22,215 bases of DNA from a virus, in the IMG/VR virus record IMGVR_UViG_3300025425_000183, positions 1 through 22,215 of that record. The stretch is one strand, 5' to 3'. Below the pieces are notes generated by a model. The model was given only the letters and a program-made list of their open reading frames with translations, was not told the origin of the DNA and ran no database searches. Below are positions 13,667 to 22,214 of the stretch, in pieces (positions within the stretch are counted from its first letter, which is position 1; each line of letters starts with the position of its first letter). Made by a program: the position numbers and the translations under genes.

Positions 13667-13867
13667 ATGAATAAGAAAAAAAGAATATGGAATAACTGTA
13701 TTACTCCCTCTCTTTCATTAATTAAATATCAGAATAAATTTGATAAATTAATGATACAAATTGAAAGAGATAAAATCTTAAAAAAAATGCCGGGTAATCA
13801 TACTGCAGGAATGGCTGTTCAAATGATTTTAAGTTTAAAGAACTATTTGAAAACAAATAGACTGTGA
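13667..13867 (+). CDS. 66-residue basic helical protein
   Basis: ATG 13667 has AGGAG at 13655-13659 (7 nt spacing), better than ATG 13616, which lies at the predicted transcription start. The product is basic and helical (IWNNCITPSLSLIKYQNKFD, AGMAVQMILSLKNYLK). No known domain. It is the only gene between the 13581 promoter and the GCGACACC repeat region, so it may be linked to that region. Confidence 0.68.
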   Translation: MNKKKRIWNNCITPSLSLIKYQNKFDKLMIQIERDKILKKMPGNHTAGMAVQMILSLKNYLKTNRL

Positions 13868-13903
13868 GACTGAATTGTGTTCCAATTGTGGCAAGATTAA
13901 GGC

Positions 13904-14310
13904 AAAATAAGGCAGATTACTGCGACACCCAAGGTGTCGCAAGGTGTCGCATAAATGCGTTTTATGCGGGTTTTGCTATCGCAGGGTGTCGCGAGATTTC
14001 TGTTTTTCTGTGTCATTGTGTCGCATGTCTGTATACTTATGTCGCAGGTAAAGCCCATATAGAGAAAAAACTGCGATAGCTACCTTGAAAAAAATGGCGT
14101 TAAATGAACAACTGCGACACCTGCGATACCACTGCGACACCCCAGGTGTCGCATGTTTTTGGTCAAATGGACAGCGGTTACCAACACTTCTAGGAGATAG
14201 GTCAACATTATTTACTTCTTGCGACACCTCCCAGGATTTTTTAGCGCAAATAAATAAAAAAAATAAAAATATGCTCTTTAGGTGTCGCAGCACCAAAGCT
14301 GCCTTATTTT
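13904..14310. repeat. 407-bp element with 12-bp inverted ends and GCGACACC array
   Basis: AAAATAAGGCAG (13904-13915) and CTGCCTTATTTT (14299-14310) are perfect inverted ends. Between them lie nine exact GCGACACC/GGTGTCGC sites, at 13922, 13933, 13943, 13985, 14114, 14134, 14145, 14221 and 14281, plus degenerate ones near 14017 and 14123, in both orientations. AATTGTGTT (13873) and AACACAATT (14312) form an outer inverted pair. Frames across it translate the repeats and do not look coding. It could be a replication origin with iterons, an operator array, or a non-autonomous mobile element. Confidence 0.75.
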
Positions 14311-14375
14311 AAACACAATTGAGGCAATTTTTATTTTCCCTGTTCGTGCCTATATTTTTGATATATAGAGGTTTC

Positions 14376-15805: not shown

Positions 15806-16189
15806 ATGGGCCCAGAGGCTAAATTATACCAAAAAGTTAAGCGTCATTTTAAGGATTTTTCACTTCTCAGACTTGAAAACATTAGCTTACTTGGTACTCC
15901 TGATCTATTGGTCTACAATAATAATCGCCACTTCTTCACTATTGAATTAAAAGTAACCAAGAGTAAAAAAGTTCGTTTCTCACCACATCAAATTGCGTTC
16001 CATTTAAGGCATCCTGACAATACATTTATCCTTATAGAGGCCCTTGGTCCGTGGTCCTCGAATACTTTTCCTATATCCATGTACCATGGTTCCCGGATCA
16101 GGGAGCTTGTAGCTTCCGGCTTGAAGCTTGACGCTTGTTACTCTGGTTGGGATGCTTGCCGCTTGAAACTTTCGGAGCTTGGTGCTTGA
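15806..16189 (+). CDS. VRR-NUC-like PD-(D/E)XK nuclease
   Basis: Protein of 127 residues. PEAKLYQKVKRHF helix, then GTPDLLVY (GTPD at 30-33), FFTIELKV (E47, K49) and FSPHQIAFH (S59, Q62): the G-x-P-D ... E-x-K ... Q signature of VRR-NUC and small Holliday-junction-type nucleases. It should cut branched or structured phage DNA. The last ~30 residues (from about residue 100) are encoded by the GCTTGNN heptad repeats, giving a tail of Leu/Ala/Ser/Cys repeats that the family normally lacks. No clear ribosome site. Confidence 0.8.
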   Translation: MGPEAKLYQKVKRHFKDFSLLRLENISLLGTPDLLVYNNNRHFFTIELKVTKSKKVRFSPHQIAFHLRHPDNTFILIEALGPWSSNTFPISMYHGSRIRELVASGLKLDACYSGWDACRLKLSELGA

Positions 16190-16239
16190 TGCTTGGCGCT
16201 TGAAGCTTGATGCTTGGCGCTTGCAGCTTGAAGCTTCCT
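16105..16239. repeat. Tandem GCTTGNN heptad repeat, cluster 1
   Basis: Units of 7 bp, consensus GCTTGNN, run in register from 16105 to 16174 (10 units, some degenerate), skip 2 nt, and continue from 16177 to 16239 (9 units: GGT, GAT, GGC, GAA, GAT, GGC, GCA, GAA ending after GCTT). GAT-GGC-GAA forms a partial higher-order order. The first units are inside the nuclease gene. Open frames on the opposite strand (KLQAPSI-type) are translation of the repeat. Confidence 0.85.
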
Positions 16240-16302
16240 AAATATAGGCGCGTGGGATTTTCTAATTGGTTCGGGAGCCTTGGGCCGCGGATCATGGCGC
16301 CT

Positions 16303-16323
16303 GCACCAGCCGGTGCCGTTTTT
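16303..16323 (+). terminator. Rho-independent terminator after the nuclease operon
   Basis: GCACC (16303-16307), loop AGCC, GGTGC (16312-16316), CG and then T5 (16319-16323). It would end the rightward transcript that begins at 15214. Stem is short but GC-rich. Confidence 0.5.
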
Positions 16324-16334
16324 AAAAAAATCCA

Positions 16335-16493
16335 TTAGTGCTTGACGCTTGAAGCTTTTATTTTTGTTATACCTAACGCGCGCAGCTGTGAGCTGGACAA
16401 CGTGCGGCCTTTATTAATATTCAAAAATGATTCAGGGCGCATTAAATGACCGTCCCTGGATCTATACATAAAAGTGTACTTTGTTTTTTTCAT
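16335..16493 (-). CDS. 52-residue basic protein, end encoded by repeats
   Basis: Starts at ATG 16493 just after the stop of the Gp88-like gene (TAATATG), so it is co-transcribed. MKKTKYTFMYRSRDGHLMRP, then GRTLSSSQLRALGITKI; the last residues (KASSVKH) are encoded by heptad units 16340-16360. No known domain. The upstream 8 codons of the longer frame overlap the previous gene and are not needed. Confidence 0.6.
   Translation of the reverse strand: MKKTKYTFMYRSRDGHLMRPESFLNINKGRTLSSSQLRALGITKIKASSVKH
16340..16360. repeat. GCTTGNN heptad repeat, cluster 2
   Basis: Three units in register: GCTTGAC, GCTTGAA, GCTTTTA. It forms the 3' end of the leftward 52-residue gene, as cluster 1 forms the 3' end of the nuclease gene. 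Confidence 0.7.
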
Positions 16494-17113: not shown

Positions 17114-17161
17114 CTCCTGTATATTTTATTTATTAGTACTATTTAATTGTGTTCGAATTAA
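17114..17161 (-). promoter_or_regulatory. Leftward promoter-leader, copy A
   Basis: On the minus strand: TTAATT (17161-17156), 17 bp, TACTAA (17138-17133), then the leader with ATACAGGAG (ending 17114) before ATG 17103. The -35 is weak, but the same arrangement recurs at 17607-17656, and AATTGTGTTC plus AAGGCTTG are conserved in both, supporting function. Confidence 0.45.
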
Positions 17162-17162
17162 G

Positions 17163-17232
17163 GCTTGCCGCTTGACGCTTGGAGCTTGCCGCTTGGTCCT
17201 TGGGCCCTGGTCCATGGAGCTTGAGACTTTTA
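17163..17232. repeat. GCTTGNN heptad repeat, cluster 3
   Basis: Ten 7-bp units in perfect register: GCTTGCC, GCTTGAC, GCTTGGA, GCTTGCC, GCTTGGT, then degenerate CCTTGGG, CCCTGGT, CCATGGA, then GCTTGAG, ACTTTTA. It begins directly after the leftward promoter A. Confidence 0.8.
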
Positions 17233-17606: not shown

Positions 17607-17656
17607 CTCCTGTATTGGTTAACTTATACTGTACTACTTAATTGTGTTCTTATTAA
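17607..17656 (-). promoter_or_regulatory. Leftward promoter-leader, copy B
   Basis: On the minus strand: TTAATA (17656-17651), 17 bp, TACAGT (17633-17628), then CCAATACAGGAG before ATG 17600. Near copy of the unit at 17114-17161. CTTAAT and ATTAAG around TGTGTTCTT (17637-17657) form a small dyad. Confidence 0.45.
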
Positions 17657-17657
17657 G

Positions 17658-17692
17658 GCTTGGTGCTTGAAGCTTGCCGCTTGAAACTTTCA
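17658..17692. repeat. GCTTGNN heptad repeat, cluster 4
   Basis: Five units in register: GCTTGGT, GCTTGAA, GCTTGCC, GCTTGAA, ACTTTCA. The pair GCTTGAA-ACTTTC also occurs in cluster 1 (16161-16173). Placed directly after promoter copy B, as cluster 3 is after copy A. Confidence 0.75.
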
Positions 17693-17713: not shown

Positions 17714-17866
17714 ACAACCTCAGGTTGAATTTGCTAATTAGAATCATTCTAAAGTGATCAGTCACTAGCTACGTAGGGTCCGGGACTGATTTATTACCGG
17801 TTTTACGAGAGGCCACCCCGAAAGTCGCAACCTATGTTCTAGTGTTTATTCTCACAGTCATAGTAA

Positions 17867-17952
17867 CTGATCCCAGATCCCTTGAGTGCTGGCCAGTAGC
17901 AACGATCGTTTCCGCATAAGCTACACCACTCGGTCAAGAGATCAGGGATCAG
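17867..17952 (+). ncRNA. Long imperfect stem-loop, possible structured RNA
   Basis: CTGATCCC (17867-17874) pairs with GGGATCAG (17945-17952), then GATC (17876-17879) with GATC (17940-17943), then CTTGA (17881-17885) with TCAAG (17934-17938): 17 pairs in 19 positions. Inside, GTAGC (17896-17900) pairs with GCTAC (17920-17924), and AACGATCGTT (17901-17910) is a palindrome. No ORF uses this region. It fits a structured RNA or a cruciform; strand is unknown and given as + by default. I recognise no Rfam family. Confidence 0.5.
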
Positions 17953-17982
17953 TAGCACGACCACAAAGTACGTGCTACTGAT
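17948..17982. other. Perfect 12-bp hairpin overlapping the long stem
   Basis: ATCAGTAGCACG (17948-17959) and CGTGCTACTGAT (17971-17982) are perfect complements with an 11-nt loop. Its first five bases also belong to GGGATCAG of the 17867-17952 stem, so the two structures compete for the same strand. Confidence 0.7.
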
Positions 17983-17985
17983 AAA

Positions 17986-18057
17986 ATTAGTAATAGGGAT
18001 TAATGCACAACAAACTTGTGTGTAATCAATTACTTGATTACTTTACCTATTACTAAT
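17986..18057. other. 12-bp stem enclosing smaller hairpins
   Basis: ATTAGTAATAGG (17986-17997) and CCTATTACTAAT (18046-18057) form a perfect 12-bp stem. Inside, GTAATCAA (18022-18029) pairs with TTGATTAC (18034-18041), and GATTA (17998-18002) can pair with TAATC (18023-18027) plus GCACA with TGTGT. It lies just upstream of the 18076 promoter; a cruciform operator, origin structure or RNA is possible. Confidence 0.65.
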
Positions 18058-18075
18058 CTATCTCCTATATAATGC

Positions 18076-18104
18076 TTGACAAAGTATTAGTCAAGGGCTA
18101 AATT
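18076..18104 (+). promoter_or_regulatory. Promoter for the 323-residue protein gene
   Basis: TTGACA (18076-18081), a 17-bp spacer and TAAATT (18099-18104). TCTCCTATATAAT just upstream (18061-18073) contains a second -10-like box. The leader carries AAAGGA before ATG 18139. Confidence 0.6.
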
Positions 18105-18138
18105 GATTTTAATTAAAATAAATATAACCAAAGGAAAC

Positions 18139-19107
18139 ATGACACAGAAAATAAGAATGAACACCGAACTACGAAACAAACTGTTTAATAAAATTAAACA
18201 CGTTTTTGAAAATGAAAGCACACAAGAGAGAGAGGACTATCTACAAGCAAGAGAAAATGTTGATGTTCAATATAAGTCAGCATTTGGATTAGCTTCTCAA
18301 ATAGTTGAACGTGCTTATCCAAGTGATGATGTTGCAACATTAAGACATTATAAAAAGAAATATGGTGAAGCTGTTGATGTTGTAGCCAAAGATAAATGTT
18401 TTTACTTTGCACACAATGAAGCTGTTGATGAAGATAATGACACAGTTGAAACTAAATCACACTTTGACTTTGGTTTGTTTGGTAATCTAAATGGTAATGA
18501 ACACTCAAGCGACGAGGGTAGAAAGTTTGCCTATGCTTATTTAAGAGAGGACTTGAGAGCATTGGACTTAAATCCAGATATACTAGCACAGCAAGATAAA
18601 AACCAAGACAATCCACACAAGACAAAACATATTGACCTGAATGATAAAGCATTAGGGAGAACAGGAAGATATAATGATAGGGATAATAATGGTTTAACGA
18701 AATCATTTGACGACCAATTTTATCTTGATGTTATTGGAACATCTTATTGTAGGTCAAGAGCAATAGCTTGTACTCAAGATGAATACAAACAACTTGAAGC
18801 ATGGAGAATTGCCAAAGGTCAAGTTGTATCAACTCATCAAACATGGGTGGATAGTATAACTAAACAATGCGACCAATTAAAAATTGGATTGAAAGCATAT
18901 AGATACTTGAGTGAAGCAATAGAACTTGCAACTGAACTAGGTATTGAAATTGAGGAAGCTGAATTGATTAGAACTAACTCAACAGGCTTAACAATCTACA
19001 ACCCTAAAAATCTTGCTGATATGATTAAAGGTCTAAAGAATAATAAACCTTTAACCCTAGCCCAGAAGATAGAAGCACGAAAAAAATATGAAGCAAGTGT
19101 AAATTAA
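18139..19107 (+). CDS. Unknown 323-residue phage protein
   Basis: ATG 18139 with AAGGA at 18131-18135; a longer frame to 18103 uses a non-ATG start inside the -10 box and is rejected. N-terminus (KIRMNTELRNKLFNKIKHVFE) is basic and helical. The middle is acidic and Asn/Asp-rich (HFDFGLFGNLNGNEHSS, DNPHKTKHIDLNDKALGRTG). The C-terminal ~110 residues are helical (TQDEYKQLEAWRIAKGQ, KAYRYLSEAIELATELGIE, LADMIKGL). I cannot assign a family with confidence; families associated with nucleotide modification would be worth testing. Minus-strand frames here are shadows. Confidence 0.85.
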   Translation: MTQKIRMNTELRNKLFNKIKHVFENESTQEREDYLQARENVDVQYKSAFGLASQIVERAYPSDDVATLRHYKKKYGEAVDVVAKDKCFYFAHNEAVDEDNDTVETKSHFDFGLFGNLNGNEHSSDEGRKFAYAYLREDLRALDLNPDILAQQDKNQDNPHKTKHIDLNDKALGRTGRYNDRDNNGLTKSFDDQFYLDVIGTSYCRSRAIACTQDEYKQLEAWRIAKGQVVSTHQTWVDSITKQCDQLKIGLKAYRYLSEAIELATELGIEIEEAELIRTNSTGLTIYNPKNLADMIKGLKNNKPLTLAQKIEARKKYEASVN

Positions 19108-20166: not shown

Positions 20167-20478
20167 ATGACAAAACAAAACACACTAAGCACAGACGCCA
20201 ACGAGTTTGTTATCATTGATGACAAAAAGAATGAGCCACAATACAAAGCAGTATCAGACTTTGTTGGTGGCATGGTTGAATGTGTATCGTTTCCAAATGG
20301 TGACTTACTTCTTTTAAATGAAGAGGGCAAACTAATGGGCTTACCATTAAACGAGAAAGCCAGTAAGTTATGGAAAGATACATTTGATAACGACAACTAT
20401 ATTACAGGTCGTAAGGACTATGTTGTTGGACCTGCCATACTTATAAAGAAACAAGCCCTTAACACTTGGGCTAACTAA
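20167..20478 (+). CDS. DUF3846-domain protein
   Basis: Protein of 103 residues. YKAVSDFVGGMVECVSFPNG, then NEEGKLMGLPLN (51-62) and YVVGPAILI match the DUF3846 pattern (V..fVGG.vE, NEEGkL.gLp.N, d.ivG.a.). The family occurs in phages and mobile elements and has no established activity known to me. Single gene behind module 3. A minus-strand frame over it is a shadow. Confidence 0.78.
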   Translation: MTKQNTLSTDANEFVIIDDKKNEPQYKAVSDFVGGMVECVSFPNGDLLLLNEEGKLMGLPLNEKASKLWKDTFDNDNYITGRKDYVVGPAILIKKQALNTWAN

Positions 20479-20732
20479 CCGAACACCAACTGTGTGGTCC
20501 TGTTGGACCACACTCACACGCACAGGTTGTGCGCCCCCCTATCACAGCATAAATACATAATCAATAGAGGTACCAGACGCGATCCGAAAAATCGCGCGCG
20601 CTCAGTAATCGATCCCCTTTAAATAAAAAGGGGTCCCACTACTTCAGGTTGTATTGCTTGATTTAGACAGTTAATGGGTGTATAAAACTTCTTCACCTTA
20701 AAAAGTGCAAAAAAAATTATAAAAATTTTAAA
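20479..20732. other. Gene-free gap with hairpins before the large terminase
   Basis: No coding frame is convincing. GTGTGGTCC (20492-20500) and GGACCACAC (20505-20513) form a perfect 9-bp stem with a 4-nt loop, right after the previous gene. CGCGAT/ATCGCG (20578-20583 / 20591-20596) and CCCCTTT/AAAGGGG (20614-20620 / 20627-20633) follow. CTTCAGGTTG (20642-20651) also occurs at 17694-17703. No T-run follows the stems. A packaging (cos/pac) site or transcript boundary is possible. Confidence 0.6.
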
Positions 20733-22214
20733 ATGGATTTAAATAACTTAGATATAAGCCAATTACCATCTGATGTTAGAAAAGAATTTAAACAATTAAG
20801 ATTACTTCACACCGAAAAAAAGATTCAAAACAAGGCTAGAGAGGATTTTATGTCCTTTGTTAAGTGCGTATGGCCCGAGTTCATTGAAGGTGCGCACCAT
20901 AGAGTAATTGCTAAAAAATTTAATGATCTTGCAACTGGTAAAATTAATAGATTAATCGTGAACATGCCTCCTAGGCATACTAAATCTGAATTTGCATCTT
21001 ACCTACTTCCAGCGTGGATGGTGGGCCGTAATCCAAAACTCAAGATCATTCAAGCAACCCACACAGGTGAACTTGCTGTAAGATTTGGTCGTAAAGCAAA
21101 AACCTTGATTGATAGTGAAGAATATTCTAAAATATTTGAAACAAGTTTAAGAGAAGACAGTCAAGCCGCTGGGAGGTGGGAAACAGCACAAGGCGGCGAG
21201 TATTTTGCTGCGGGTGTCGGCGGTGCAATCACTGGACGGGGTGCTGACTTATTAATCATTGATGATCCTCACTCAGAGCAAGATGCGATGTCAGCAAGTG
21301 CATTTGACAATGCTTATGAATGGTACACCTCTGGTCCACGTCAAAGGATGCAGCCAGGTGGAAAAATTGTTTTAGTTATGACTCGATGGTCTAAAAAAGA
21401 TTTAACAGGAATTTTATTAAAGAACCAAGGTAAGATTAAAGGGGATCAGTGGGACGTGGTCCAGTTTCCGGCAATCATGGACCACGGACCAAAGGAAGGA
21501 AAGCCCGTTTGGCCTGAATATTGGAAAATAGATGAGTTGGAGAAGGTTAAAGCAACCCTTCCGGTTGGAAAATGGAACGCGCAGTGGATGCAAAAGCCAA
21601 CTAGTGAAGAAGGAGCGATTATAAAACGTGAATGGTGGCGAAAATGGGATCGAGACACGTTACCAGACATAAGTTATGTTATTCAAAGCTATGATACTGC
21701 TTTTTTAAAAAAAGAAACTGCCGATTTTAGTGCAATTACCACTTGGGGAGTATTTTATCCTGAAATTGATGGTCCCGCTAATTTAATTTTAATGGATTGT
21801 CTAAAAGATCGATTTGAATTTCCAGAATTGCGTCGAGCAGCTCTTGAGCAATATAAATATTGGAATCCTGACATGGTGGTCATCGAACAAAAAGCGTCTG
21901 GAACCCCTTTGACCCATGAATTTCGTCAAATGGATATTCCAGTTATGCCCTTTACTCCAAGCCGAGGAAATGATAAACATGTAAGAATAAATTCATGTGC
22001 ACCTCTTTTTGAAGCGGGTTTAATCTGGGCGCCAGATATGCGTTTTGCAGAAGAAGTGGTTGAGGAATGCGCGGCATTCCCACATGGAGATCATGATGAC
22101 TTAGTAGATTCTATGACTATGGCTGTTATGCGATTTAGACAGGGAGGTTTTATAACTCACCCGGAAGATTATGTAATTGAAACACAACCGCCTAGAAAAA
22201 GAGAGTATTATTAA
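20733..22214 (+). CDS. terL: Terminase large subunit
   Basis: Complete protein of 493 residues. ATPase: Walker A PPRHTKSE (79-86), Walker B LLIIDD (D177, D178), coupling motif VMTRW. Nuclease (RNase H fold): SYDTAF with D321, VVIEQKASG with E385, and HDDLVDSM with D455/D456/D459. It translocates phage DNA into the capsid and cuts it. The start ATG 20733 has no ribosome site and follows a very A/T-rich run. The partner small subunit is not adjacent but leftward at 14632. The stop is at the window's edge. Confidence 0.95.
   Translation: MDLNNLDISQLPSDVRKEFKQLRLLHTEKKIQNKAREDFMSFVKCVWPEFIEGAHHRVIAKKFNDLATGKINRLIVNMPPRHTKSEFASYLLPAWMVGRNPKLKIIQATHTGELAVRFGRKAKTLIDSEEYSKIFETSLREDSQAAGRWETAQGGEYFAAGVGGAITGRGADLLIIDDPHSEQDAMSASAFDNAYEWYTSGPRQRMQPGGKIVLVMTRWSKKDLTGILLKNQGKIKGDQWDVVQFPAIMDHGPKEGKPVWPEYWKIDELEKVKATLPVGKWNAQWMQKPTSEEGAIIKREWWRKWDRDTLPDISYVIQSYDTAFLKKETADFSAITTWGVFYPEIDGPANLILMDCLKDRFEFPELRRAALEQYKYWNPDMVVIEQKASGTPLTHEFRQMDIPVMPFTPSRGNDKHVRINSCAPLFEAGLIWAPDMRFAEEVVEECAAFPHGDHDDLVDSMTMAVMRFRQGGFITHPEDYVIETQPPRKREYY

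Follow-up and report, generated by a model that had tools for sequence, protein, structure and literature searches.

A gene-free stretch between the two terminase genes of a pelagiphage very probably specifies a structured RNA that codes for no protein and is made up of interchangeable domains that have been swapped among related phages. Sequence comparison establishes structure at the level of RNA, the strand involved, syntenic conservation, and the exchange of domains. An earlier note on this DNA had read the region as a possible structured RNA, a reading that is upheld by covariation in relatives, with no Rfam match in the window (the whole 22,215-base stretch analysed, which is the virus record). 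The note missed the strand, the promoter-like sequence, the pseudoknot, and the modular exchange.

The phage and the locus

The genes of the window include those for a DNA polymerase, a primase-like protein, a PD-(D/E)XK nuclease, and the small and large terminase subunits. Its nearest named relative is Pelagibacter phage HTVC027P (68% identity for the large terminase and 73% for the homologue of gp35). The window belongs to an HTVC027P-type pelagiphage, whose hosts are the most abundant bacteria in the ocean. The structured region lies both between the two terminase genes and between divergent genes (Table 1). The rightward neighbour, gp35, has no Pfam or PHROG family, and its AlphaFold model is weak (pLDDT 63.8). 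No tRNA or tmRNA gene was found in the window.

When the region was compared by blastn with named phages, only HTVC027P was recovered, in weak pieces, the rest being chance matches; with the HTVC027P RNA as query, only the RNA itself was returned, again with chance matches. Phage HTVC023P has another gene order at this locus and gave no match either to Rfam or to the covariance model R1 described below.

Folding and parts of the RNA

The three main elements reported in the earlier note are present at the positions claimed. These are a long stem with 20-nt arms, 90% complementary and 48 nt apart (17866-17885 / 17934-17953), a 12-bp hairpin without mismatches (17948-17959 / 17971-17982), and, around an 8-bp hairpin, another uninterrupted stem of 12 bp (17986-17997 / 18046-18057). 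The region is indeed free of long ORFs, and two helices do overlap at 17948-17952. A proposed pairing of ATCAGTC with GACTGAT (17757-17763 / 17784-17790) has been dropped, since relatives instead keep a pseudoknot, in which 17784-17787 pairs with 17823-17826 and 17780-17783 with 17797-17800. Two other short repeats listed there, CTACGTAG and CTATG/CATAG, overlap the conserved helix 17774-17777 : 17831-17834.

The predicted fold of 17735-18137 has a z-score of -6.75 on the plus strand and -6.48 on the minus strand, and none of 100 shuffled sequences is equally stable; the inverted-repeat fold is therefore not due to chance. Among 220 tiles of 200 nt that cover both strands of the window, the lowest z-score (-7.7) belongs to 17854-18053 on the minus strand. 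The structured region extends past the limits first given for it, up to a promoter-like sequence at 18066-18094. At the equivalent place, 71 of 123 gp35-bearing relatives have TTGAC[AT]-N16-18-TATAT[ATG]; the match is absent there in 36 of the 123 loci, and the 16 further matches are a different sequence, TTGACC..TATTTT. A promoter consensus scan omits 18066-18094 because its rule demands T as the last letter of the -10.

Table 1. Positions of the parts of the RNA and of the neighbouring genes in the window
Feature	Positions	Strand	Description
Left neighbours of the structured region		minus	GP88-family gene and small genes
Next genes past the structured region	17601 and 17539 downwards	minus	
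Conserved CTTTAGAATGATTCTAA past M2	17738-17754	minus	at the locus in 50 of 123 relatives
M2 domain	17755-17872	minus	closed by GATCAGTTA / TGACTGATC
M2 helix P3	17774-17834	minus	TAGG 17834-17831 : CCTA 17777-17774
M2 H-type pseudoknot	17780-17826	minus	GACT 17826-17823 : AGTC 17787-17784; CCGG 17800-17797 : CCGG 17783-17780
F2 long stem	17867-17952	minus	CTGATCCC(U)GATC... / ...GATC(U)GGGATCAG
Hairpin H1	17948-17982	minus	perfect 12 bp, ATCAGTAGCACG / CGTGCTACTGAT; 3' strand common with F2
Leader hairpin	17986-18058	minus	12-bp stem around 8-bp hairpin; would start ~8 nt past the -10
Promoter-like sequence	18066-18094	minus	-35 TTGACT 18094-18089, 17-nt spacer, -10 TATATA 18071-18066
gp35 homologue, right neighbour (divergent)	18139-19107	plus	

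A leader nearly identical to that of the window is found at loci L007 and L010, and in L007 the inner hairpin is altered on both sides (GTAATCAA/TTGATTAC to GTAATTAA/TTAATTAC). More distant relatives have other leader modules in place of the leader hairpin. F2 combines a conserved U.U mismatch with an exchangeable inner arm, and M2 contains the conserved stretches TGACTGTGAGAATAAACACTAGAACA and CGTAGC..TAGTGACTGATC. The CTTTAGAATGATTCTAA element past M2 probably lies near the 3' end of the RNA.

Covariation

A search with the gp35 homologue gathered 29 viral loci. In most of these, a TTGACA-N17-TATATA that resembles a promoter stands upstream of gp35 on the minus strand, and motifs recur in the non-coding sequence past it. 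A pattern search with the TGACTGWGRNRDTAAACACTAKAACA motif gave more than 100 contigs among the matches listed, nearly all of which share the same neighbours, namely the GP88-like gene, gp35, and the terminase genes. F2 and/or M2 stand at the equivalent place in more than 90 related contigs.

Because F2 is nearly palindromic, it was counted only on the strand bearing the U.U mismatches, which gave 108 distinct inserts from 103 contigs; totals for the F3 frame, in which the two strands are mixed, were left aside. Within the constant frame CTGATCCC(U)G...C(U)GGGATCAG, the arms of these inserts vary, yet they pair. All nine arm positions adjacent to the frame pair better than in 1000 of 1000 shuffles, and position 5 is 100% Watson-Crick with four pair types, where 39% would be expected.

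The structures were drawn from the very alignments under test, and shuffle and slide controls were consequently needed; M2 passed both by a wide margin. In an alignment of 45 M2 sequences of one subtype, 98.2% of the cells pair, and there are 180 changes on both sides of a pair, compared with 63.5 +/- 6.9 after shuffling and at most 47 when the partners are slid. Helices 48-50 : 83-85 and 67-72 : 86-91 of this alignment cross, and M2 thus contains an H-type pseudoknot. In the subtype of the window itself (eight sequences), all cells are paired, with 18 both-side changes versus 4.9; its pseudoknot is paired in 8 of 8, with both-side changes in 4/4 and 2/4 of the pairs. A third subtype has the same layout and also covaries, and the pseudoknot topology is shared by subtypes A2 and A3. 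The outer pair of P3 appears as C-G, U-A, and G-C in the window subtype, and the matching pair in the 45 relatives as C-G, A-U, G-C, and U-A. Compensatory change, which the earlier note had proposed to look for in homologous regions, is thus strong in both F2 and M2.

Model R1, built from the first M2 subtype (other than that of the window) with one crossing helix omitted, finds the M2 of the window with 58.3 bits (E 7.5e-12) on the minus strand and with 14.1 bits on the plus strand. On the minus strand, G-U pairs far exceed A-C pairs (67:8 over the nine positions of F2 and 61:6 in M2), and the U.U mismatches of F2 are nearly always on that strand. DNA hairpins would lack such an asymmetry, and the constraint is therefore on RNA rather than DNA.

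Competing helices

Four consecutive copies of CTGATC, in direct or complementary form, lie along the RNA strand; the first (a) precedes H1, the second (b) separates H1 from F2, the third (c) separates F2 from M2, and the fourth (d) follows M2. Pairing of a with b and of c with d gives three separate hairpins, while pairing of b with c and of a with d gives a four-way junction. The mutually exclusive helices noted earlier exist as predicted pairings, and the two folds of the window have predicted energies of -86.4 and -86.3 kcal/mol (calculated without pseudoknots). However, this equality is not conserved, because the F2-extended (b:c) fold is the minimum free energy (MFE) structure in 80 of 96 loci, with a median advantage of 3.25 kcal/mol (also without pseudoknots). 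In relatives, strand a is mostly GAT[TC]A, a possible partner for the CTGATC that follows H1, with a G-U pair in many cases. At least four of five nucleotides of a:b are paired in the MFE structure at 65 of 96 loci, versus 132 of 480 shuffled sequences. Comparison across the loci thus supports both sets of helices as predicted pairings.

Modules and their exchange

The usual order among the 123 gp35-bearing loci, which were partly chosen by these same motifs, is leader modules, F2, M2, an F3 frame, the Rfam family Flavobacterium-1 (M4), and the CTTTAGAATGATTCTAA element. Any module can be absent, and F2 or M2 is sometimes double. When loci are chosen by gp35 alone, at least one module is present in 21 of 24. 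The close relatives L016 and L017 are without every module, so that some members of the phage group can do without the RNA. At L008, L023, and L024, a small gene separates gp35 from the RNA, which is consequently not bound to a fixed leader position. Since the modules differ, a global alignment of the full upstream regions was uninformative.

Inserts of the same family are found in both F2 and F3 frames. Furthermore, identical F2 inserts of 45-64 nt lie between different H1 and downstream modules in phages whose gp35 proteins are 60-84% identical (L127/L141, 60%; L089/L134, 83%; L035/L186, 84%). The simplest explanation of these shared sequences would be that single domains have been exchanged recently. 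A second named phage genome, that of phage 023Pt_psg01 (L238), has the F2 frame with a different next domain at the equivalent locus, positions 6100-6440 of L238.

Relation to known RNA families

No Rfam family matches the window, known riboswitch classes included, and RF02976 (Flavobacterium-1) gives no match there even at E 5. Weak hits to HIV_POL-1_SL, SNORA9, MIR7502, and mir-789 fall well short of the respective cut-offs and were regarded as chance matches. In relatives, RF02976 (gathering cut-off, 58.9 bits) is found downstream of M2 with 90-115 bits in L015, L020, L021, HTVC027P, and six further virus records, and it is present in seven of eight related virus records searched. An exact search of 84,980 species genomes with the core of the phage version gave one match, a scaffold of the single-cell genome of Flavobacterium sp. 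SCGC AAA160-P02. This scaffold (L158, KB911123.1) has an M2 and four genes of the phage group, namely those for the small terminase, the GP88-like protein, the nuclease, and gp35. Among 199 Flavobacteriaceae genomes, searched under strict filters that weak matches could escape, RF02976 occurs in one, again on the phage scaffold, and no flavobacterial chromosomal RNA of the kind suggested by its name was found. Model R1 had no match in 59 other Flavobacteriaceae genomes. As the other 198 genomes lack the family, its name appears to stem from a phage scaffold inside a single-cell genome and is probably misleading.

RF02976 spans only 121 nt of the larger composite and is also found on its own at other phage loci. 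The solitary module lies in the sense orientation directly past the stop codons of other phage genes, for example between PolA and an exonuclease (L166, L164, L192, L182, and others) or upstream of TerL (L034, L052, L169, L201).

The leader module lead1 (L018, L025, L041, L193, L238) is a short H-type pseudoknot with an A-rich loop. Its helices covary, being TTCC/GGAA and GCTAAT/ATTAGC, but ATCC/GGAT and GGTGG/CCACC in L238 and GCATGTT/AACATGC in L193. The order of its strands (stem, stem, A-rich loop) resembles that of preQ1-I riboswitch-type H pseudoknots, but lead1 matches none of the riboswitches in Rfam, even at E 5, and this preQ1-I-like module of relatives is absent from the window. In L238 it lies directly ahead of a gene.

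In kind, the composite is closest to the large ornate phage RNAs. GOLLD and ROOL are such RNAs of phages and prophages, and their function is unknown (PMC12286853). Like GOLLD, the RNA described here is large, elaborate, non-coding, and phage-encoded, with a conserved and a less conserved part (PMC12286853). However, it is shorter, is composed of shuffled domains, and differs in sequence and context; the GOLLD and ROOL models of Rfam have no match in the window, and these RNAs often lie near tRNA islands, whereas the window has no tRNA gene. GOLLD and ROOL also assemble into homo-oligomeric complexes of RNA alone. The likeness to the pRNA of phi29, also a structured phage RNA, is limited to the position between terminase genes, and the family model of that RNA does not match the window.

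Function and alternative explanations

The best explanation of the whole, to which a probability of about 0.55 is given, is a stand-alone, modular phage RNA that acts in trans. In this model, a non-coding RNA of ~300 nt would be transcribed from the minus strand from its own sigma-70-type promoter and would fold into a row of rigid domains (leader hairpin, H1, F2, and M2), joined without linkers through the four CTGATC/GATCAG copies. These copies would form three separate hairpins or a four-way junction, perhaps alternating as two states in vivo. The ends of F2 and the core of M2 would be the constant part of the RNA. Its variable part would be the inner arms, traded among co-infecting phages through recombination within the conserved frames. 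In trans, the RNA would most likely serve during infection as a structured scaffold or a decoy, with a macromolecule of the host or the phage as its binding partner. It is position alone that suggests action in trans. Such an RNA is preferred because the region has its own promoter-like sequence, a fixed place, and a conserved unpaired core, because it has neither a terminator nor a start-codon platform, and because the frame stays constant as the arms are exchanged. A more tentative extension is that the RNA is diversified combinatorially and recombined among pelagiphages like polymorphic proteins, in which case its arms might represent binding specificities in an arms race against hosts, satellites, or rival phages.

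It is unlikely that the RNA instead belongs to the 5' untranslated leader of the small minus-strand genes and regulates these in cis by a change of fold. It does lie on the strand of the next genes, its mutually exclusive helices are predicted to be equally stable in the window, and a separate pseudoknotted leader module directly fronts a gene in phage 023Pt_psg01. However, no terminator-like site was found at the end of the structured region, the next gene starts ~150 nt past it rather than directly after it, and the small gene that comes next in relatives appears to have a TTGACA-type promoter of its own past the RNA. Furthermore, the RNA sometimes stands behind a small gene rather than ahead of one, the F2-extended fold prevails (80 of 96 loci), and no riboswitch family matches. 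The attenuator or riboswitch suggested earlier is thus not supported. Pseudoknots are able to block exonucleases, and the region could be a 3' element that stabilises transcripts, an array of nuclease-resistant folds that protects the upstream RNA or itself and in which the content of the modules matters little. The solitary Flavobacterium-1 modules past stop codons and the position of the composite after a small gene in L008 and L023 would fit such a role, but most loci have no translated sequence upstream of the RNA on its strand, and the conserved, sequence-specific unpaired stretches of M2 exceed the needs of a generic block, which leaves this explanation rather improbable.

The remaining alternatives concern DNA. 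Selfish, MITE-like palindromic repeats that insert into each other and have no function for the phage would account for nested and exchanged inserts, and at L139 an M2-like sequence does lie within another frame; nevertheless, the fixed position and strand at one locus, the compensatory changes, the conserved unpaired core, and the promoter-like sequence make this very improbable. A DNA element near the terminase genes, i.e., a replication origin, a packaging signal, or a cruciform operator, might be expected from strong intergenic inverted repeats placed between divergent genes and between terminase genes, but it is scarcely credible given the one-strand excess of G-U over A-C, the one-strand U.U mismatches, and the covariation of the pseudoknot. 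The origin or cruciform operator offered in the earlier note is accordingly not supported, as the pairing follows RNA rules on one strand and the model scores 58 bits on the minus strand versus 14 on the plus.

No description of the composite RNA was found in Rfam or in the open-licence literature searched. Rearrangement of RNA was known only as simple circular permutations before a paper of 2023, as that paper states (PMC10085705). Domain swapping is familiar in proteins and hardly described for RNA, and while structured phage RNAs of unclear function are known, no account was found of one that is a mosaic with domains passing between phages. If such a mosaic is real, RNA can evolve through the shuffling of domains in a protein-like way, and does so in phages of highly abundant ocean bacteria. 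An orphan Rfam family would be accounted for as part of a longer RNA of phages, and concrete domain borders are supplied for structure determination and the search for partners. HTVC027P, which carries the RNA, has been isolated, and its host HTCC1062 is in culture; transcription and function are thus directly testable.

Other features of the window

Next to the structured region, a palindrome at 18074-18104 (CTTGAC-N9-GTCAAG), which is conserved in relatives, sets a plus-strand TTGACA-N17-TAAATT (for gp35) facing the minus-strand promoter-like sequence, and its arrangement suggests a possible operator. A second structured, gene-free stretch lies upstream of the large terminase at 20480-20735; the tile 20454-20653 has z-scores of -4.8 (minus) and -4.3 (plus). 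Many TGTCGCA / TGCGACA repeats occupy a poorly coding stretch at 13854-14330; L131 and L095 are among the relatives with similar repeats close to gp35. Short repeat arrays of the GCTTG type (GCTTGAAGCTTGCCGCTTG) are present at 16100-16335, 17160-17230, and 17650-17690, and GCTTG-like repeats are also seen past the RNA in most relatives.
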